This document shows, piece by piece, positions 573-7,150 of a stretch of DNA of 34,269 bases (position 1 is the first letter of the stretch; each line of letters opens with the position of its first letter). The stretch is taken from positions 1-34,269 of the forward strand of contig JAUSHL010000045.1 in NCBI GenBank assembly GCA_030648645.1. The letters run 5' to 3'. The notes under the pieces are model-generated. The model made no database searches. It was not told the origin of the DNA and saw only the letters and a program-made list of their open reading frames with translations. The translations under genes were made by a program, and so were the position numbers. The DNA is from Candidatus Daviesbacteria bacterium. Its GTDB lineage: Bacteria > Patescibacteriota > Microgenomatia > Daviesbacterales > UBA10151.

Positions 573-578
573 CGAAGG

Positions 579-851
579 CGGGGACAACGGGACTCGAACC
601 CGCAACCTCATCCGTGCATGTAATCCAATATTTTCATATCAGCATGGACTATATCTTCGCCATATTAAAATTAACTTAGGCGCTCCGGTATCTAGTCTCT
701 ACGGCGCTCTCGCCAGTTGGCGAGTTCCCACGGTATTAGCATATTATAAAAATTTAGCCTTCACCGTTATCCCGGAATTTTCTCATCCTAGAATTTCTTC
801 TAGGAGCTGCATTTCTACAGGGAAGCGCTCTAACCATTGAGCTACGACCCC
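579..851 (-). tRNA. tRNA-Asp(GUC) interrupted by a group I intron
   Basis: The 5' exon (851-817) gives acceptor GGGGTCG, a D-arm with GCTC/GAGC, anticodon-stem strand CTTCC and loop start CTGT. The 3' exon (616-579) gives CAC, GGATG, variable AGGTT, a T-arm GCGGG-TTCGAGT-CCCGT and acceptor TGTCCCC. Joined, the loop reads CTGTCAC, so the anticodon is GTC (Asp). The splice lies between U35 and C36. The discriminator is G and is followed by CCT, not CCA. Odd points: a T-T mismatch in the acceptor stem (5:68), a G-T pair at 7:66, and a T-T mismatch in the anticodon stem (28:42). The gene may therefore be weak or decaying. The homing-endonuclease gene upstream overlaps the first 10 bases. Confidence 0.85.
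617..816 (-). ncRNA. Group I self-splicing intron, 200 nt, in the tRNA-Asp anticodon
   Basis: The 5' exon end CTGT pairs with GCAG inside the intron start (AGAAATGCAG), forming P1 with the required U-G at the splice site. The intron ends in G (position 617), as group I introns do. The R-like element GAGACTAGATACCGG (about 685-699) and the S-like element GAAGATATAGTCC (646-658) supply GACTA/TAGTC for P7. A perfect CTCGCC-AACT-GGCGAG hairpin supports a P5/P6-type arm. There is no ORF inside; at 200 nt it is near the small end for the class. Subclass not decided. Likely self-splicing; activity has not been shown. Confidence 0.85.
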
Positions 852-1582
852 AAATTTTTGATCCCTTTTTCTAGGATTACCCTTTTTCGTTCAAGACATG
901 GTAAACCTAATTCAGGATACATGAAACTGTATAATTTTACCACATTACAGTAACTAAATGATAGTGTATAGGCACCACTGTGACTACAAATAGACCCACC
1001 TTTAATTTTAACTACTTCGATTAATCTTTTATGAAGCGATTTAAGAAAGTGTTCACTACCAGATGTAAGTCTTAAAGTTAGTATTTTGTAAAGTTTATTT
1101 TTTCTATCAACACGATGATAATAATGCAAATAAGCACATCCATCACCATCAAAATATCCTCTTAGGAAATGTCCTAGCATATTATTTGGGATTATTGGAA
1201 GTTTTAAAGTTAAACTTTTTTTAGGAGTAAAACCAATTTCTAATAATCTGAAAAACATTTTCTTACTACCTATTTGAAGAGTATATCTAATTTTAGTATT
1301 ACCTTTTGGTTGATAAATTTCAATAATGTTTTTAACCATTATAATATTTTTAATAGTTTCAATGAGCTCTTTATCAGCAGAAGTAAAAGAAATATAATAT
1401 GAACCACGTTTATTTCTATACATTGAGCCATCTGAAGCAAAATATCCAAGGACATATGCCATATCTCTTGTCCAATTATCGAAAAAAGATTCTGCATCTC
1501 TTTGAGGCCAACGGAGGCTCTTCAAAATAATCTCAGGTCCTAAAACTGGAGATTTAAGATGCTTTTCCATTTTGGATTTCAT
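842..1582 (-). CDS. LAGLIDADG homing endonuclease next to the intron-bearing tRNA-Asp
   Basis: A 246-residue protein with two LAGLIDADG helices, LGYFASDG (45-52) and RGYFDGDG (141-148), each with the catalytic Asp. This is the usual monomeric two-motif layout, so it should cut a long asymmetric site. It is not inside the intron but directly upstream on the same strand. Its last codons GGG-TCG-TAG are bases 2-10 of the tRNA, so the tRNA supplies the stop. A TAAAAT box (1590-1595) lies 7 nt before the ATG, which fits a leaderless mRNA. A start four codons in (MEKHLK) is possible. The likely target is the intronless tRNA-Asp gene (inference). Confidence 0.9.
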   Translation of the reverse strand: MKSKMEKHLKSPVLGPEIILKSLRWPQRDAESFFDNWTRDMAYVLGYFASDGSMYRNKRGSYYISFTSADKELIETIKNIIMVKNIIEIYQPKGNTKIRYTLQIGSKKMFFRLLEIGFTPKKSLTLKLPIIPNNMLGHFLRGYFDGDGCAYLHYYHRVDRKNKLYKILTLRLTSGSEHFLKSLHKRLIEVVKIKGGSICSHSGAYTLSFSYCNVVKLYSFMYPELGLPCLERKRVILEKGIKNLGS

Positions 1583-1589
1583 TAGGGTA

Positions 1590-1595
1590 ATTTTA
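1590..1595 (-). promoter_or_regulatory. -10 box of the homing endonuclease gene
   Basis: TAAAAT on the minus strand, 7 nt before the ATG at 1582. No good -35 is visible. The spacing matches many other genes in this window. Confidence 0.4.
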
Positions 1596-1627
1596 TTGTA
1601 ATTACTTGATAGAACATTATCAATCCA

Positions 1628-1666
1628 GAGGTTAGTTTATATGTTCAATTCCCGTCGATTCCGCCA
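1628..1666 (+). pseudogene. tRNA 3'-end fragment with CCA
   Basis: The plus strand reads AGAGGTTA, then a T-loop TTCAATT (1644-1650), CCCGT, an acceptor-like CGATTCC, discriminator G and CCA (1664-1666). The 5' side of the T-stem is replaced by GTTTATAT, and no D-arm or 5' acceptor strand is found upstream. It resembles a tRNA-Asp 3' end. It lies on the opposite strand, on the far side of the homing endonuclease gene. Confidence 0.45.
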
Positions 1667-1746
1667 AATAAAAATTTCATAATTATCTTCAGCTTGACAA
1701 AAGGTAAGAAATCGAGTAAATATATTGCTAGAGAATACCTGCCTGC

Positions 1747-1828
1747 ACCCGTTCAAGTTTTGAGTATCAAATCAAAATTTGCTTGGGTAAACCCGTCATA
1801 AATTTCGAAGAAATTTTGTTCGGGTAAA
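1747..1828. repeat. Two adjacent palindromic repeats (ACCCG...CGGGT family)
   Basis: The first palindrome (1747-1791) runs from ACCCGTTCAAGTTTTGA to TCAAAATTTGCTTGGGT. The second (1791-1828) runs from ACCCGTCATAAATTTC through GAAG to AAATTTTGTTCGGGTAAA. The second is present as an identical 38-bp inverted copy at 7076-7113, also beside a less perfect partner. No ORF is inside. It sits in the leader of the LysM gene. Confidence 0.75.
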
Positions 1829-1854
1829 TACAACAAAAGTTAGGAGGTGAAAAA

Positions 1855-2532
1855 ATGCCAAGAACTACAAAAAATAAAAAAATAAGCTCAAAGACTGCTA
1901 ATGTTTCTTTATTGCAAAGATTACAATCTCAAATGCAGGATGACCAATCTTATTTAAGTTTAATTTTAGGACTTCTAATAGTCTTAATTGCCGGAATTCT
2001 AGTTTTCAATTACTTTAAAAAAGCTCCTGCTGATTTAGGAAGTGCTGGAAAAACAGAACAAACAGATGTCGCTCCTGAAAATTTACCGGGACAATATACA
2101 GTTAAAGAAAATGACACTCTCTTTACCATTGCTCAGACTTATTACAATGATGGATATAAATTTACCGAAATTGCCAAAGAAAATAGCCTAGCTAATGCTG
2201 ATTCTATTGAAGTAGGACAAGTTTTAGAAATTCCTAAATTAGAAGAATCACAGATACTAGCAGAAGCAGAAATTACTCCATCAGAAGTTACTCCATCAGA
2301 AATTACTCCAACAGATATAGTTGAAAGTGGAGTTGGTGGGGCTATTAATGAAACAACTTGGGGAGAAAAAATCGAAGGAGAATCTTACACTGTAGTAGAA
2401 GGAGACTGGTTGTCAAAAATTTCAGGTAGAGCTTATGGAGATATAATGGCTTTTGATAAAATTGCCAAAGCAAACAACATTGCTGATCCTAATATAATTG
2501 AACCAGGAACTGTTTTACAGATACCTAGATAA
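1855..2532 (+). CDS. Membrane-anchored protein with two LysM domains
   Basis: A 225-residue protein: a basic cytoplasmic N-terminus, one transmembrane helix (about 35-54), LysM 1 (80-127, opening YTVKENDTLFTIA), a linker with TPSE-type repeats (141-154), and LysM 2 (177-224, opening YTVVEGDWLSKIS). LysM modules bind N-acetylglucosamine-containing glycans, so this likely holds peptidoglycan from the outer face of the membrane. The start is well supported by TAGGAGGTG, one of the few strong Shine-Dalgarno sites in the window. No catalytic domain is present, so it is a binder or scaffold and not a hydrolase. It is followed by the tRNA-Gly gene. Confidence 0.85.
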   Translation: MPRTTKNKKISSKTANVSLLQRLQSQMQDDQSYLSLILGLLIVLIAGILVFNYFKKAPADLGSAGKTEQTDVAPENLPGQYTVKENDTLFTIAQTYYNDGYKFTEIAKENSLANADSIEVGQVLEIPKLEESQILAEAEITPSEVTPSEITPTDIVESGVGGAINETTWGEKIEGESYTVVEGDWLSKISGRAYGDIMAFDKIAKANNIADPNIIEPGTVLQIPR

Positions 2533-2577
2533 TATTCCTTGATGCAACTGGAGTGTTATAATTAATCCTGCAGAAAT

Positions 2578-2648
2578 GCGGGGTTCGTACACCGGTAGTA
2601 TGCTTCCTTCCCAAGGAGGAGAAACGAGTTCAATTCTCGTACCCCGCT
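2578..2648 (+). tRNA. tRNA-Gly(CCC)
   Basis: A full 71-nt cloverleaf: acceptor GCGGGGT/ACCCCGC perfectly paired, D-arm GTAC/GTAT, anticodon stem CTTCC/GGAGG with loop TTCCCAA, a 4-nt variable region and T-arm ACGAG-TTCAATT-CTCGT. Anticodon CCC. The discriminator is T, unusual for Gly in many bacteria. CCA is not encoded. Confidence 0.93.
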
Positions 2649-2707
2649 CTAAATTAGAGTGTTCCGACAAGGTGGAAATGTCGAGGGTTCAAGTCCCTTC
2701 TCCCGCT
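2646..2707 (+). pseudogene. tRNA-Gly-like remnant without its 5' acceptor strand
   Basis: This starts inside the end of tRNA-Gly(CCC). It has a D-arm-like GCTC-TAAATTA-GAG, a weak anticodon arm TTCC...GGAA with an 8-nt loop, a good T-arm GAGGG-TTCAAGT-CCCTT, and acceptor CTCCCGC (2700-2706). The matching 5' strand GCGGGAG is absent and the D-loop lacks GG. The 3' half resembles tRNA-Gly. It looks like a recombination or deletion product. Confidence 0.55.
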
Positions 2708-2757
2708 CATAAGTGACAGAAATGTACCTAAAGTAACAGGAAAGTTGCAATAACAAT

Positions 2758-3870
2758 ATGTCAAGAGAAATATACAGAGATATCGTCAGTCCTGTTCTAG
2801 ATAGACTAGATTCTGAAGCATGGCATATTAGAGCCAGAGAAGCACTTCATTTAGCAGAAGCCAATCCTTTTACATTGAAACTTTTAGAACAATTTGCCTA
2901 TCAACGTAAACGATTTACAGATAAAAGATTGCAAGTGGTTTTAGGCGGTATTCAATTTGATAATCCGCTTGTGGTTGGAGCTGGTTGGGACAAAGTTGGC
3001 AGAGCGGTAAAAGCTCTTTATACGCTAGGCTTTTCGGGAGTTGAGGTTGGCTCTGTACTTACCTATCCACAGCCTGGCAAATCAAAACCTAGACAATTCA
3101 TGATTAGCTCAGGTGTTGCTCTTAATAGGTTGGGGTTCAATAGCCCTGGTGTAGATGAAGTTGCTCTAAATCTAAGACGATATAGAAAAAGTGGAATTCC
3201 CATTGGGATAAGTCTTGGTAAAAATAAAGAAGTTGAGCCTAAATATGCACCAGAAGCACATGCTATTGTTGCCAGAAGACTTTATGAAGATGCAGCTTAC
3301 TTTGTAATAAATGTTTCTTCTCCCAATACTCCAGGTTTGCGAAAATTGCAAGATAAAGGACCGTTAACTGATATTGTTCAGGCAGTGAATGGGGTTATGG
3401 ACAAAATAGGTGAAAGAAAACCCACATTTGTTAAAATTTCTCCAGATTTAACAAACGAAGCGGTTGATGATGTAATAAGAGTAGTAGCGGACAATGGTCT
3501 AGCAGGAATAATTGCAACAAACACGACTATCCGACCAGAGCTTAAAGCAAAGTATGGTGAACAGTGGAGAGATCAAGCTGGAGGTTTAAGCGGAAATGAT
3601 CCAGAATTTCGCAGGATGGCTACAGAAAAAGTCGCGCATATTTATCGAGAGACTGGTGGAAAAATGGAAATTATCGGAATTGGTGGAGTTAAGGATACTG
3701 AAACTACATTGGAGAAAATCAGAGCTGGTGCAAGAATTGTGCAAATTGTTACGGCTATTAGAGGCGAAGGAACTACACTTTCTGGGAAAATTAATAGCGG
3801 AATAATTGACTATATGGAGCAAGAAGGAATAAGCAATTTAAATGAAATAATCGGGAGTGACGTTCATTAG
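2758..3870 (+). CDS. pyrD: Dihydroorotate dehydrogenase, class 2 (quinone-linked)
   Basis: A 370-residue protein of normal class 2 length. It oxidises dihydroorotate to orotate in pyrimidine synthesis, using FMN and passing electrons to quinone. The catalytic loop NVSSPNTPGLRKLQ (185-198) has the class 2 catalytic Ser (Ser188). Other family marks are GAGWDKVGRA (74-83), NRLGFNSPG (123-131), ATNTTI, GGLSG and IIGIGGV near the C-terminus. The N-terminal helices, where class 2 enzymes meet the membrane, are present. No other pyr gene is nearby. A weak AGGAAAG sequence lies upstream, so the ATG at 2758 is likely but not certain. It follows the tRNA remnant by 50 nt. Confidence 0.93.
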   Translation: MSREIYRDIVSPVLDRLDSEAWHIRAREALHLAEANPFTLKLLEQFAYQRKRFTDKRLQVVLGGIQFDNPLVVGAGWDKVGRAVKALYTLGFSGVEVGSVLTYPQPGKSKPRQFMISSGVALNRLGFNSPGVDEVALNLRRYRKSGIPIGISLGKNKEVEPKYAPEAHAIVARRLYEDAAYFVINVSSPNTPGLRKLQDKGPLTDIVQAVNGVMDKIGERKPTFVKISPDLTNEAVDDVIRVVADNGLAGIIATNTTIRPELKAKYGEQWRDQAGGLSGNDPEFRRMATEKVAHIYRETGGKMEIIGIGGVKDTETTLEKIRAGARIVQIVTAIRGEGTTLSGKINSGIIDYMEQEGISNLNEIIGSDVH

Positions 3871-3943
3871 AAAGTAATAAAGCTTTTAATACTTATATGG
3901 CTCTTTAGAGCACTAAGTTGTAAAATTAAATCTGAAGTAATAA

Positions 3944-4098
3944 GACGGTGGTAGGTTCGAGCGCATTATCGTTACCAGCTTTGAAATGGTAATACGCCCC
4001 CCACCGAAACGGGGATGTCGGGGGCTTCTCCTGTTCAAAATAGTATTGCAAACAGGTAAAGTAGAGGCAAGTAGATTTACTCTGCTCACTTGCTCATG
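3944..4098. ncRNA. GC-rich structured stretch of unknown type
   Basis: This non-coding segment is much richer in GC than its AT-rich flanks. It can fold into several arms: GGTGG with CCACC (about 3947-4004) around TTACCA/TGGTAA; CCCC-ACCGAAAC-GGGG; CCTGTT...AACAGG (about 4030-4056); and GCAAGT...ACTTGC (about 4067-4093). The second arm contains CTTTGAAATGG, like a tRNA-Ser(UGA) anticodon arm, but no acceptor stem is found. I do not see RNase P, tmRNA or SRP RNA signatures. It may be a small RNA, a decayed tRNA or a repeat element. Confidence 0.3.
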
Positions 4099-4130
4099 TA
4101 GAACTAATCGTAATTTGATCCATGGTATAG

Positions 4131-4136
4131 TATAAT
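4131..4136 (+). promoter_or_regulatory. -10 box TATAAT 7 nt before a start codon
   Basis: A perfect TATAAT ends 7 nt before the ATG at 4144. No clear -35 box. It suggests a leaderless mRNA for the small gene at 4144. Confidence 0.5.
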
Positions 4137-4143
4137 TCTTTAC

Positions 4144-4263
4144 ATGAATAGACAAGAAGTTCAGATACCTATCCCTAAAGATGCTATTGAAGTTACATTA
4201 GATGGACATGTAGGCACCTATTTTGTCAATCCCGATCCAGCTAAGCAGAGTTTACACATGTAA
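4144..4263 (+). CDS. Small orphan protein, 39 residues
   Basis: A short frame beginning MNRQEVQIPIPKDAIEVTLD and ending in TAATG, where the stop shares one base with the start of the next small gene. A TATAAT box 7 nt upstream supports the start. The layout allows translational coupling. It is equally possible that this and the next frame are one protein of about 105 residues split by a frameshift, since the next frame continues with similar composition. No family recognised. Confidence 0.5.
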   Translation: MNRQEVQIPIPKDAIEVTLDGHVGTYFVNPDPAKQSLHM

Positions 4264-4463
4264 TGAATGTTTTAGGAACTGATGGTGCATCTTATCAGTT
4301 TACTCCTGATGAAGTAATAATTACTTCTTATTCCACTTATGATCATAACTACAATAATGTCCAAACAATATACAAAAATCCTTGTAGACAATTTTGGGAA
4401 TGGCAGGAGGTTCTTCAACAAAAATTATATAAAGTTAATGAAGTTTACATAACTCAAGAATAA
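4263..4463 (+). CDS. Small orphan protein, 66 residues, coupled to the preceding frame
   Basis: It starts at the ATG in TAATG, overlapping the previous stop by one base. The protein is rich in Tyr, Asn and Thr with no membrane segment, and includes CRQFWEWQEVL near the C-terminus. No separate Shine-Dalgarno. It may be the second half of a frameshifted gene. Function unknown. Confidence 0.5.
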   Translation: MNVLGTDGASYQFTPDEVIITSYSTYDHNYNNVQTIYKNPCRQFWEWQEVLQQKLYKVNEVYITQE

Positions 4464-4529
4464 GGCTTCATAATTCACAATATTAGTCGTATAAAGAAAG
4501 ATTAATATTTCTTTTAAATTAAAAAATGC

Positions 4530-4535
4530 TAAAAT
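4530..4535 (+). promoter_or_regulatory. Extended -10 box upstream of tRNA-Thr
   Basis: TAAAAT preceded by TGC (TGn extended -10), 16 nt before the mature tRNA 5' end. The same TGCTAAAAT string precedes ileS. Confidence 0.45.
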
Positions 4536-4551
4536 GAACTAAGAAGCGAGT

Positions 4552-4624
4552 GCCGACTTAGCTCAGTTGGTAGAGCGACTGTTTCGTAAACAGTAGGTCA
4601 TTGGTTCAATTCCAATAGTCGGCT
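4552..4624 (+). tRNA. tRNA-Thr(CGU)
   Basis: A complete 73-nt cloverleaf: acceptor GCCGACT/AGTCGGC, D-arm GCTC-AGTTGGTA-GAGC, anticodon stem ACTGT/ACAGT with loop TTCGTAA (anticodon CGT), variable AGGTC and T-arm ATTGG-TTCAATT-CCAAT. The discriminator is T; CCA is not encoded. All stems pair without mismatch. Confidence 0.95.
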
Positions 4625-4637
4625 CCGGAAATTAAAC

Positions 4638-5372
4638 ATGAAAAGATACAGATCTAATTATAAATCTAGTTTAACCAGAAGAATTGAAAGAAAAAGTAAA
4701 AAGCGGCTTTTCTTCACTTTTTTGATTATATTAATTCTGCTTTATTCCTTCTTCACTTGGTTTTTCCCTACACTAATTGGAAATTTAACTTTTATTAATA
4801 AATTAAAAGAACAACCAAAAAAAGTTATTCCTGTATCTGAAAATACGACTTTAGCCCCCCCAGTTTTTAATATTCCATTTGATGCTACAAATAGCTCTGC
4901 CATAATTATCAGAGGTTATTCGGCTCCTGAAAAACAAGTTGAAATTTATATTGATGACAATCTTTCAGATACCATTAAAGTTAATAAAGATGGCAGTTTT
5001 ATTTCGAGCAAACTTTACTTAAATCTTGGTACCAGTAATATTTACGGTAAAACTATTGATGATCAGGGGGTTAAAAGTTTGCCCTCCAAAACAATCCGCA
5101 TTCTTTATAGTAATGAAAAACCAAAATTAGATGTCAGTGAACCATCCGATAATCAAACTATAAACGGTGGAGATAAAAAAATAAAAGTTTCCGGAAAAAC
5201 GGATCCGGATAATACAGTCACAATTAATGGTAGTAGAGTTATTGTTAATAATGATGGAAATTTTTCTCAAACTCTTGAAATTAATGAAGGTGATAACAAT
5301 ATCGTAATTTCGTCAACCAATAGTACCGGAAATTCAACTCAAATTGGCCGAAAAGTCACATATCAGCCTTAA
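4638..5372 (+). CDS. Membrane-anchored protein with two Ig-like domains
   Basis: A 244-residue protein: a basic N-terminus, one transmembrane helix (about 24-45), then an extracytoplasmic part with two beta-rich repeats (about 72-155 and 160-242). These are of the type annotated as bacterial Ig-like or glucodextranase-B-like domains: each has a GYSAPEKQVEIYID or GKTDPDNTVTINGS strand, an NKDGSF or NNDGNF turn and a final GxNxI strand. Likely role is surface binding or scaffolding. It ends 2 nt before the start of the O-antigen-ligase-like gene, so the two probably form one transcript that begins just after tRNA-Thr. Confidence 0.8.
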   Translation: MKRYRSNYKSSLTRRIERKSKKRLFFTFLIILILLYSFFTWFFPTLIGNLTFINKLKEQPKKVIPVSENTTLAPPVFNIPFDATNSSAIIIRGYSAPEKQVEIYIDDNLSDTIKVNKDGSFISSKLYLNLGTSNIYGKTIDDQGVKSLPSKTIRILYSNEKPKLDVSEPSDNQTINGGDKKIKVSGKTDPDNTVTINGSRVIVNNDGNFSQTLEINEGDNNIVISSTNSTGNSTQIGRKVTYQP

Positions 5373-5374
5373 CC

Positions 5375-6574
5375 ATGCTTTCATTTCTCTCTTTAATTTT
5401 ACTTTTTTCTATCATTGCAGGACAGTTAATAAAAATCCCTCTGGGATCAGGTGGCTTAACTTTATTAGATATCACAGTTTTAATTTTAGATATTTATGCT
5501 TTAACCAAAATTAAATATGGTTCAATTAAATTTCCCTTCTGGTTTAAATTAATCTTAATTTTTTGTTTCATTGGCTTTATTTCTTTGCTTTTTTCTCCTT
5601 TAAAATTGTCATTACAACAATTTTTAATTAGTATCTCTTACAATTTTAGATTACTGGCATATTTCTCATTTGGATATTTTCTGACTTTAAATATTTTTCC
5701 CTCACTGAAAAAAGATGTTTTTAAAATTTTAATTTATTCAGGAATTATTTTAGCAATTTTAGGAATATTGCAATTTATTTTTATTCCTAATTTAATTTTC
5801 TTGCAACAATATGGCTGGGATCCACATTATTTTAGAGCTGTATCTACTTTTTTAGATCCAAATTTTCTAGGAGCATTTTTAGGACTTACTTTACTTTTAA
5901 TTTTAAAAAATTCCCAAAAATTATTTTCTAAAAAATTCCAATTTATTTTTTTTGCTTTAGTTTATATATGTTTATTATTAACTTTTTCCCGAAGTGCTAT
6001 CTTACTCCTAGGAGTCAGTTTATTAACATTTTCACTTTTAAAAAAATCTATAAAATTGACAATTCTTACATTTCTACTCTGTATAGGTTTTGGAATTAGT
6101 TTCTATATTTATACCCAACTTGTATTAATTCCCAAAGGAATTAACAGAGAAGAATCTGCTTCTTTTCGTATCAGTACATGGCAGGATGGATTAAAAATTT
6201 GGCAGTCTTCATCTATTTTTGGAGTAGGATTCAACAGCTACAGGTATGCTTTAATAAAATTAAATCCAAATTCAGAAAATTTTACAAATAGTCATGGGGC
6301 TTCAACAAATGATTCCAGTTTATTATATGTTTTGGCAACCACAGGAATCATAGGATTAGTAATTTATTTATTTTTTTTACGATCAATCCTCTGGCTTCCA
6401 GTTCTTTTGGGGTTAATTATTAACAGCTTTTTTATCAACAGTCTCTTCTATCCCAGTATCTTAATTTGGATAATTCTTTATGTAGGTACTGAGGGATTAA
6501 GTCTACTCCGACATTCGTCGGAGATCTTGTCCCGACACAAGGTCGGGATTGAACCCCCGACATCTACAATTTAA
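5375..6574 (+). CDS. O-antigen ligase / polymerase-like membrane protein
   Basis: A 399-residue protein with about ten transmembrane helices and the large extracytoplasmic loop of the Wzy/WaaL (O-antigen ligase) family, including FLDPNFLGAFLG, a TFSRSA turn and the loop segment GVGFNSYRYAL. It probably links or polymerises a surface glycan. It starts 2 nt after the Ig-like gene. The last 25-30 residues (from about position 6485) are read from the antisense strand of a tRNA-Val remnant with inserted hairpins. That tail is therefore probably not native, and the original C-terminus seems to have been lost when this debris arrived. Confidence 0.8.
   Translation: MLSFLSLILLFSIIAGQLIKIPLGSGGLTLLDITVLILDIYALTKIKYGSIKFPFWFKLILIFCFIGFISLLFSPLKLSLQQFLISISYNFRLLAYFSFGYFLTLNIFPSLKKDVFKILIYSGIILAILGILQFIFIPNLIFLQQYGWDPHYFRAVSTFLDPNFLGAFLGLTLLLILKNSQKLFSKKFQFIFFALVYICLLLTFSRSAILLLGVSLLTFSLLKKSIKLTILTFLLCIGFGISFYIYTQLVLIPKGINREESASFRISTWQDGLKIWQSSSIFGVGFNSYRYALIKLNPNSENFTNSHGASTNDSSLLYVLATTGIIGLVIYLFFLRSILWLPVLLGLIINSFFINSLFYPSILIWIILYVGTEGLSLLRHSSEILSRHKVGIEPPTSTI
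6482..6570 (-). pseudogene. tRNA-Val 3'-half remnant with hairpins inserted in the T-loop
   Basis: The flanks match the intact tRNA-Val at 6693-6764. On plus, GTAGGTACTGAGGGATT corresponds to acceptor and T-stem, and TTGAACCCCCGACATCTACAAT to the T-arm and anticodon stem. Between them about 50 nt are inserted, holding two perfect 7-bp hairpins: CTCCGAC-GTCGGAG (6507-6522 region) and CCCGAC-GTCGGG (6531-6547 region). GGGATT occurs at both edges of the insert (6493-6498, 6545-6550). The 5' half is absent. Confidence 0.6.
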
Positions 6575-6577
6575 TTA

Positions 6578-6692
6578 TGGTGGAGCCATGTGGATTCGAA
6601 CTACAGACCTTTGCAATGTGAATGCAACGCTCTTTACCCGAACAAGTTTTGCTTCGCAAAATTTGAACGGGTAAACCAACTGAGCTAATCTG
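6578..6692 (-). pseudogene. tRNA-Val(CAC)-like gene with a palindrome in the D-loop and no matching 5' acceptor
   Basis: The minus strand has D-stem GCTC/GAGC, an anticodon arm TTGCA-TTCACAT-TGCAA (anticodon CAC), a T-arm TGTAG-TTCGAAT-CCACA with one mismatch, acceptor TGGCTCC, discriminator A and encoded CCA (6578-6580). The D-loop AGTTGGT is interrupted by a 43-nt palindrome (6633-6675). The bases where GGAGCCA should stand are unrelated. It follows the intact tRNA-Val directly. Probably inactive unless the insert and 5' end are handled in an unusual way. Confidence 0.6.
6633..6675. repeat. Palindromic element of the ACCCG...CGGGT family inside a tRNA D-loop
   Basis: TTTACCCGAACAAGTTTTGC, a TTC loop, then GCAAAATTTGAACGGGTAAA form a 20-bp arm pair with three mismatches. 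The outer TTTACCCG/CGGGTAAA is shared with the elements at 1747-1828 and 7076-7150. It splits the D-loop of the tRNA-Val-like pseudogene. Confidence 0.75.
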
Positions 6693-6764
6693 TGGGTACT
6701 GAGGGATTTGAACCCCCGACATCTACAATGTGAATGTAGCGCTCTACCACTGAGCTAAGTACCC
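6693..6764 (-). tRNA. tRNA-Val(CAC)
   Basis: A complete 72-nt cloverleaf: acceptor GGGTACT/AGTACCC, D-arm GCTC-AGTGGTA-GAGC, anticodon stem CTACA/TGTAG with loop TTCACAT (anticodon CAC), variable ATGTC, T-arm GGGGG-TTCAAAT-CCCTC, discriminator A. The upstream GIY-YIG gene runs into its first 10 bases. Confidence 0.93.
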
Positions 6765-7024
6765 ATTTCCTTCCAATAATTTTTCAAAGTTCTTTTAATA
6801 TAATTCCTTCCCCATTGGGTTTTAAGAAACTTTTCTCTGGCTGTTGCATCCTGTTGATGCAAATATGCTTCACAATATATTAATTTAAATGGTCTTCTAT
6901 ATTTAGTTGCTTCTACCTTACCATCATCATAGTATTTCAGTCGACTTTTTAAGTCTGCTGTGTAACCAGTATACAATTTTCCATCCTTCAAACTTTTAAG
7001 TACATAGACAGCATACACATTCAC
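6755..7024 (-). CDS. GIY-YIG nuclease-domain protein ending inside tRNA-Val
   Basis: An 89-residue single-domain GIY-YIG protein (UPF0213/YhbQ-like size). The first motif is VYVLKSLKDGKLYTGYT, where Y-V-L and Y-T-G-Y stand for GIY...YIG. Later come the Arg of LKSRLKYY, the segment KLIYCEAY and the Glu of TAREKFLK. The cellular substrate of this group is not settled. The last codons ATG-GGT-ACT-TAG run into the tRNA, whose T8-A9-G10 is the stop. The frame opens with GTG at 7024. A second GTG at 7018 has TAAAAT exactly 6 nt upstream and gives the more typical N-terminus MYAVYVLKS, so it may be the true start. Confidence 0.85.
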   Translation of the reverse strand: MNVYAVYVLKSLKDGKLYTGYTADLKSRLKYYDDGKVEATKYRRPFKLIYCEAYLHQQDATAREKFLKTQWGRNYIKRTLKNYWKEMGT

Positions 7025-7075: not shown

Positions 7076-7150
7076 TTTACCCGAACAAAATTTCTTCGAA
7101 ATTTATGACGGGTTTACCCGATAAATTTTGCAATACAAAATTTAAACGGG
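7076..7150. repeat. Two adjacent palindromic repeats, inverted copy of the pair at 1747-1828
   Basis: Positions 7076-7113 are the exact reverse complement (38 of 38 bases) of 1791-1828. The adjoining palindrome 7113-7150 (TTTACCCGATAAATTTTG ... AAATTTAAACGGG) is the counterpart of the less perfect copy at 1747-1791. So the two-palindrome unit occurs twice, in opposite orientation, 5.2 kb apart. Confidence 0.8.

Follow-up and report, generated by a model that had tools for sequence, protein, structure and literature searches.

The contig analysed here, 34,269 nt from a Candidatus Daviesbacteria bacterium (JAUSHL010000045.1; below "the window", contig C24 of a 962-kb genome in 45 contigs), carries two nuclease genes of different families, LAGLIDADG and GIY-YIG, each of which ends inside the tRNA gene that follows it. 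Both genes probably belong to a large group of selfish nuclease genes that target tRNAs in Patescibacteria, a reading for which all of our evidence is sequence. Each would be a free-standing homing-type endonuclease gene located at the 5′ boundary of the tRNA gene which it probably recognises. The two junctions comprise the following features:

842–1582, minus strand: LAGLIDADG gene, 246 aa (PF14528, 49 bits; motifs GYFASDGS and GYFDGDGC)
577–851, minus strand: intron-split tRNA-Asp(GUC), exon 1 at 851–817 and exon 2 at 616–577 (ARAGORN with introns allowed)
617–816, minus strand: group I intron of 200 nt without an open reading frame (ORF) (Rfam RF00028, 50.4 bits, E 1.4e-11)
6755–7024, minus strand: GIY-YIG gene, 89 aa (PF01541, 45.4 bits)
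6692–6764, minus strand: intact tRNA-Val(CAC), 73.4 bits, its first 10 bases lying under the GIY-YIG gene

The original prediction stated that both genes stop on the same three bases, T8-A9-G10, of the next tRNA, and we found both junctions as described: the TAG of the LAGLIDADG ORF lies at 844–842, which are T8, A9 and G10 of the tRNA-Asp starting at 851, and the TAG of the GIY-YIG ORF lies at 6757–6755, the same three positions of tRNA-Val(CAC). One point needs correcting: the first tRNA is no ordinary one but a tRNA-Asp(GUC) with a group I intron. A plain tRNA scan misses it because the 200-nt intron, inserted between U35 and C36, splits the anticodon.

Our census of tRNA-centred loci and their coordinates in the source genome supported the broader idea that different nuclease families have docked repeatedly and independently at tRNA 5′ ends. 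All seven ORFs of at least 70 aa which end between −10 and +76 relative to a tRNA start are nucleases or nuclease-like, namely GIY-YIG (at tRNA-Val, Glu and Asn), LAGLIDADG (tRNA-Asp, twice), HNH_3 (tRNA-His) and a LAGLIDADG-like protein recognised by its motif (tRNA-Ile), and the non-nuclease genes upstream of tRNAs end at −13 or further. The proposed refutation, a TAG that is common at positions 8–10 without any enrichment of nucleases, did not materialise: TAG is common there, and the ORFs of at least 70 aa that end on these positions are nucleases in 3 of 3 cases in the source genome and in 2 of 2 in the relatives G041 and G029. Counts take related genomes as separate entries, and totals are sensitive to spurious ORFs and to intron-split tRNAs missed by scans. 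The HNH_3 ORF represents a third nuclease fold docked on a tRNA; at this locus (L013, C34:21867-24940) a 156-aa zinc-ribbon endonuclease ORF (Pfam, 42 bits) overlaps tRNA-His and stops at position 21. At locus L007 (C40), a 231-aa helix-turn-helix (HTH) protein with the LAGLIDADG-like motif GLFLYWGEG ends 8 bp before tRNA-Ile; its assignment is by motif only, because Pfam matched just the HTH.

The same association was observed on a larger scale. The nearest named relatives of the GIY-YIG protein are in Levybacteria and Roizmanbacteria (Microgenomates part of Patescibacteria), and a set of 178 GIY-YIG ORFs was drawn from these and from the order of the window, with placement relative to tRNAs taken from the translated ORFs. 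A tRNA starts within 80 bp of the stop on the same strand for 43 of the 178 and on the opposite strand for none, and in the three genomes of a separate census, 7 of 25 GIY-YIG genes lie right against a tRNA, where 0.07 are expected by position (P ~2e-12). Of 48 LAGLIDADG ORFs, 40 have a tRNA at their end (Asp 21, Leu 14, Cys 3, Phe 1, Ser 1); across 380 genomes of the phylum, the closest homologues stand directly before tRNA-Asp wherever the contig extends that far, and more distant ones before tRNA-Cys, Leu or Phe. The overlap with tRNA 5′ ends is far beyond chance and nuclease-specific.

Since the catalytic residues are invariant in both families, both nucleases are probably working enzymes. 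The LAGLIDADG protein combines the family motifs and catalytic acids (D51, D145 and D147, invariant across 28 homologues) with the alpha-beta fold; its model has a pLDDT of 90.7, and the top Foldseek matches are LAGLIDADG homing endonucleases (E 1e-9). Its constant linkage to tRNA-Asp, Leu and Cys across the phylum is an indirect hint that it may cut a long specific site and promote its own inheritance. The 89-aa GIY-YIG protein has the nuclease core with its catalytic Tyr, Tyr, Arg and Glu (Y7, Y18, R28 and E64, invariant in 13 proteins), and its best structural matches are UPF0213 (1zg2, E 6e-7) and Slx1.

The arrangement at the tRNA comes in at least two discernible architectures, GIY-YIG cassettes with a tRNA duplication versus LAGLIDADG genes that run straight into the tRNA. 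Immediately in front of 19 of 42 docked GIY-YIG genes there is a truncated copy of the 5′ part of the same tRNA (z ≥ 6), compared to 5 of 111 control tRNAs. None of 15 LAGLIDADG genes has such a copy or the arrangement of remnant plus hairpin, and we therefore rejected these genes as carriers of the duplication. A palindrome with a stem of at least 6 bp is present in 26 of 26 remnants (z ≥ 4), and 81% have a stem of at least 7 bp, where shuffled sequences average 4.9. Four tRNA-Asp cassettes, each from a different genus, have the hairpin GTCCGATGnnCATCGGAC in common, but on either side of it the remnant reproduces the tRNA of its own host, which differs from case to case. This would fit either a fresh duplication at each arrival or a conversion that keeps the copies equal. 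The same hairpin also occurs in the tRNA-Val remnant of L161, and Gly and Val remnants from different lineages contain GTCGCCGCGGCGAC. The T-loop GGTTC marks the end of several 5′ remnants; others end in the anticodon arm. Counted with or without a GIY-YIG gene in between, 12 of 13 3′ remnants, of many isotypes, start 4–8 nt past G53, either within the T loop or at its end; a repeated sequence makes the thirteenth ambiguous.

Of 119 control tRNAs, 71 have a promoter-like −10 box in front (18.1 expected by shuffling), and so have 11 of 26 remnant starts (2.9 expected). It was found before 5 of 42 tRNAs behind GIY-YIG genes (9.2 expected) and 11 of 40 behind LAGLIDADG genes (6.0 expected). As the tRNAs behind GIY-YIG genes lack such a box, nuclease and tRNA are likely to share one transcript. 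With the box before the remnant instead of the working tRNA, the most economical explanation is that the cassette inserted into the tRNA gene downstream of its promoter, and the working tRNA would now be made from the nuclease transcript. A cassette consists, in this order, of the tRNA promoter, the 5′ part of the tRNA with its palindromic hairpin, the GIY-YIG gene and the complete tRNA. It presumably went into the tRNA gene at the anticodon arm or T loop and, on entering, would have rebuilt the 5′ part on the far side, which allows the tRNA to survive, processed out of the nuclease message. It is possible, and we propose this tentatively, that GIY-YIG cassettes are distinct miniature bacterial mobile elements, composed of an Slx1-like single-domain nuclease, a hairpin and a host-derived 5′ tRNA duplication, which insert in the tRNA anticodon arm or T loop, rebuild the tRNA and capture its promoter, and that GIY-less remnant elements of ~40–130 bp are their non-autonomous relatives mobilised in trans.

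A rather unlikely alternative is that the hairpin-bearing truncated tRNAs are neutral debris, hit by dispersed palindromic repeats and unrelated to the arrival of GIY-YIG genes. The TTTACCCG repeat does occur elsewhere in the genome, and there are remnants without a GIY-YIG gene, both among the controls and among the 3′ remnants. Against this, all 26 remnants carry a hairpin, the Asp cassettes of four genera share one hairpin even though their tRNA letters differ, and the enrichment of remnants at GIY-YIG genes is strong.

Second copies of a tRNA 3′ end also occur behind working tRNAs where the two are not separated by any ORF. Such a copy begins in the T loop and follows after ~50–140 bp (mostly 100–140) at L010, L027, L029 and L008 in the source genome and at L190, L210, L078 and L101 in relatives. 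L190 (Gly) and L210 (Leu) have a conserved core in common.

Downstream and upstream of the GIY-YIG gene, the window itself contains further tRNA-Val pieces and a repeat:

6579–6691, minus strand: second tRNA-Val(CAC), dead, without nt 1–6 (24.9 bits for 6581–6656)
6484–6571, minus strand: tRNA-Val 3′ half with exact matches to tRNA nt 36–57 and 57–70
7076–7116, no strand assigned: palindromic repeat TTTACCCG...CGGGTTTA upstream of the GIY-YIG gene, with six exact seed copies in the genome

The dead tRNA-Val abuts the 3′ end of the intact one and has a TTTACCCG...CGGGTAAA hairpin in its D loop, and the 3′ half carries a T-loop insert of ~52 nt with two hairpins. The clade mates of the GIY-YIG gene in L031, L033 and L210 are accompanied by a tRNA-Val remnant with a TTTACCCG-type hairpin in the D loop, the same repeat as at 7076–7116. 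We count the GIY-YIG gene of the window as a cassette member because of the clade it falls in, the hairpin it has in common with that clade and the dead tRNA-Val pieces behind it, and the locus looks like an older, partly decayed insertion.

Between genomes, GIY-YIG insertions can be present or absent at the same pair of tandem tRNAs. Three genomes have 4–5 bp between tRNA-Phe and tRNA-Gly and a fourth has 25 bp, but the gap measures ~300–600 bp with a GIY-YIG gene in five others (the copy in L101 is broken). Up to 16 GIY-YIG copies are present per genome. Arrays of tRNA - GIY-YIG - tRNA - GIY-YIG were seen in L047 and L128, and we read these as the outcome of successive insertions into a single tRNA cluster. 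When mapped on a GIY-YIG domain tree, the isotype labels change 25 times versus 40.2 after shuffling, with none of 200 shuffles as low. The GIY-YIG gene of the window falls into a Val clade with four others, and Asp, Leu, Lys and one Asn group cluster too, on a tree in which many forks are weak because it comprises only 72 columns. GIY-YIG clades and LAGLIDADG subfamilies keep to one tRNA isotype across genera and phyla; one contig, L037, labelled Nitrospirae, may be mis-binned. These features also bear on the idea that the GIY-YIG genes are not parasites but genes of the host, encoding nucleases of the UPF0213/Slx1 kind for repair or tRNA processing whose co-transcription with tRNAs is useful. 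Both the structural matches and the retained catalytic residues would suit such a role, which we nevertheless consider unlikely given the patchy occurrence at the same tRNA pair, the copy number, the isotype-specific clades and the partial tRNA duplications that adjoin the genes.

LAGLIDADG genes run into the tRNA with no tRNA duplication. The one in the window is followed by the split tRNA-Asp, whose group I intron matches the full RF00028 model above the gathering score and occupies a splice-competent site. A second intron-split tRNA-Asp is present on contig C17 with its own LAGLIDADG gene, which is 47% identical and also stops at position 8, and no unsplit tRNA-Asp was called among the 38 Rfam tRNAs of the source genome in the loci examined. 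The tRNA-Asp at 577–851 has mismatches at T5-T68 and T28-T42 (read by eye); given these and the second split copy, it may be decaying. Just upstream of the LAGLIDADG start, a degenerate tRNA-Asp-like 3′ half lies on the opposite strand (1583–1666, plus strand). Group I introns are widespread in the order of the window, being found in 34 of 45 genomes with tRNA-Asp, Asn, Thr, Leu and Gln among their hosts. We rejected the possibility that the LAGLIDADG gene is intron-borne, as it lies outside the intron and often where no intron exists.

In phages, collaborative homing has been described for an intron and an endonuclease gene that target the same gene (reviewed in PMC3984707). The situation at tRNA-Asp is similar, since an ORF-less intron and a separate endonuclease gene meet at one target gene at 8 loci, and the enzyme of the window may thus cut the intron-insertion site of tRNA-Asp. 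It differs from the phage cases in that the target is a bacterial tRNA and that gene and intron also occur apart. Among the 45 genomes of the order, 4 have gene and intron, 3 the intron only, 2 the LAGLIDADG gene only and 36 neither (P = 0.003). This co-occurrence above chance, the 8 shared loci and the presence of the bI3 maturase and I-AniI among the Foldseek matches could also be explained if the protein were mainly a splicing maturase for the tRNA-Asp intron. We regard that as improbable: the intron is present at 8 and absent from 13 of the 21 tRNA-Asp loci behind a LAGLIDADG nuclease, close homologues stand at intronless tRNA-Leu and tRNA-Cys, and the catalytic acids are invariant.

The remaining alternatives concern the stop codon. 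By its geometry, RNase P cleavage before G1 would part the nuclease message from its stop codon, and selection for a stop inside the tRNA could tie nuclease expression to tRNA processing in this way. The lack of an own promoter box before tRNAs behind GIY-YIG genes, and hence the likely common transcript, agrees with this proposal. On the other hand, in about half of the docked GIY-YIG genes the stop codon comes before the tRNA begins, and the inside stops are spread from position 8 to 76, at the first in-frame stop; such selection is improbable as well. Docked GIY-YIG genes stop 13 times at position 8, 3 times at 13, twice at 19 and 14 times just upstream (−9 to −2), and docked LAGLIDADG genes 9 times at position 8, 8 times at 13 and otherwise from −8 to 65. 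If a tRNA offers no stop at positions 8–10, the ORF continues to the next one available. In tRNA-Glu these positions are TCG and the GIY-YIG gene stops at 13; in tRNA-Leu they are usually TGC or TGG and the LAGLIDADG genes stop mostly at 11–42.

That T8-A9-G10 as such is special was not borne out. TAG at positions 8–10 is tRNA consensus, being present in 21 of 39 tRNAs of the source genome and 26 of 45 tRNAs of two relatives, and sister nuclease genes have their stops at −9 to −2, 11, 13, 19, 20, 21, 29, 34, 36 or 42, so that the constant feature is the 5′ boundary. By a hand tally, 13 independent lineages overlap a tRNA that has a stop at 8–10, and ~7 of them use it, where 1/3 is expected per frame (P = 0.10). 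Once overlap with the tRNA is given, the shared T8-A9-G10 is not beyond chance; this stop appears to be the first in-frame one that many tRNAs happen to provide, other stops are equally common, and we rejected a special role for it. To this extent coincidence in a compact genome, where any gene upstream of a tRNA would run into it and stop at this TAG, stands for the identity of the stop, but for the overlap itself it is already refuted and very improbable overall, as other upstream genes end at −13 to −58 (apart from a relative's 103-aa ORF of doubtful status, at −5), every tRNA-overlapping ORF in the census is a nuclease, and tRNAs at GIY-YIG stops are confined to the same strand.

Several points weigh against tRNA-targeting selfish nucleases as the explanation. 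The case for cleavage, homing or transposition is sequence-based, and the cassette model would require that the restored tRNA somehow escapes re-cutting. For about 100 of the 178 GIY-YIG ORFs, the adjoining 300 bp contain no tRNA, so that the nuclease family as a whole is not tRNA-linked, and the GIY-YIG protein is a bare 89-aa domain without a separate DNA-reading domain, nearest to the structure-specific nucleases UPF0213 and Slx1. There is no clear 5′ tRNA remnant at the window's own GIY-YIG gene (z −0.3). Finally, the tRNA-Asp intron without LAGLIDADG gene in 3 genomes and the gene without intron at 13 of 21 loci show that the two can be separate.

Endonuclease genes that restore their host gene are known in other contexts. 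In the Allomyces mitochondrial ORF360/atp6 element, an endonuclease gene travels with a partial copy of the host gene and restores that gene on insertion. Nuclease gene, partial host-gene copy and restoration are all shared with the tRNA cassettes, whereas the host gene of the Allomyces element is protein-coding and located in a fungal mitochondrion, and there is no hairpin-bearing tRNA remnant. Genomic islands insert in tRNA genes via tyrosine recombinases with partial duplication and restoration of the tRNA. They resemble the elements described here in their tRNA target, the partial duplication and the restored tRNA; however, our elements measure 0.1–0.4 kb and have no integrase, the nuclease gene overlaps the tRNA, and in the GIY-YIG type it is the 5′ end which is duplicated.

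The closest functional parallel is SegB of phages T4 and T6, a homing endonuclease of GIY-YIG type whose free-standing gene belongs to the phage tRNA region (PMC13096335, citing Brok-Volchanskaya et al. 2008). SegB of T6 cuts inside tRNA genes at RAWTSGAAC, and segB often co-localises with tRNAs in phages (PMC13096335). The GIY-YIG gene of the window is likewise free-standing and its family genetically linked to tRNA genes. The SegB motif is the reverse complement of the T-loop consensus, and the T-loop junctions of our 3′ remnants fit it. In contrast to segB, the gene of the window is chromosomal, in Patescibacteria, 89 aa long and nearest to UPF0213/Slx1, and genes of its type end on or inside the tRNA and have beside them a truncated copy of this tRNA that bears a hairpin. 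The GIY-YIG protein had no match among PHROG families at E 0.1, and a sequence relationship to SegB was not found. The remnant junctions appear linked to SegB by position and motif rather than by sequence homology, and the gene may best be called SegB-like, working like SegB without being a member of it. Viral contigs yielded no relatives of either the LAGLIDADG or the GIY-YIG protein at the sensitivity used, and on these grounds we rejected a phage origin.

Group I introns in bacterial tRNA genes, including those of Patescibacteria, have been reported previously (Lui et al. 2021, PMC8172020), and a preprint on such introns is cited in PMC12641178 (Nakagawa et al. 2025). The intron in the tRNA anticodon and the bacterial group are the same here. 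As far as these sources were accessible, the prior work covers introns or rRNA-borne LAGLIDADG genes, with no mention of nucleases overlapping tRNA 5′ ends. In the open literature, with Nakagawa et al. 2025 outside our coverage, we found no description of nuclease genes at tRNA 5′ ends in Patescibacteria.

What we describe resembles a family of very small selfish elements whose invasion of tRNA genes leaves the tRNAs usable. Essential, often single-copy and highly conserved, tRNA genes are ideal homing targets for an invader that leaves them functional. Our data suggest that several nuclease families have converged on this niche in the most genome-reduced bacteria, which contrasts with the idea that such reduced genomes hold little mobile DNA. 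The arrangement predicts which tRNA each nuclease cuts, that the tRNA is processed from the nuclease message, and that a precise presence or absence distinguishes one strain from another. Moreover, docked genes may supply compact nucleases with new tRNA-gene specificities. Duplicated tRNA ends also complicate automatic tRNA annotation. Elsewhere in the window, a tRNA-3′-half-like stretch lies at 2652–2708, directly behind tRNA-Gly(CCC).

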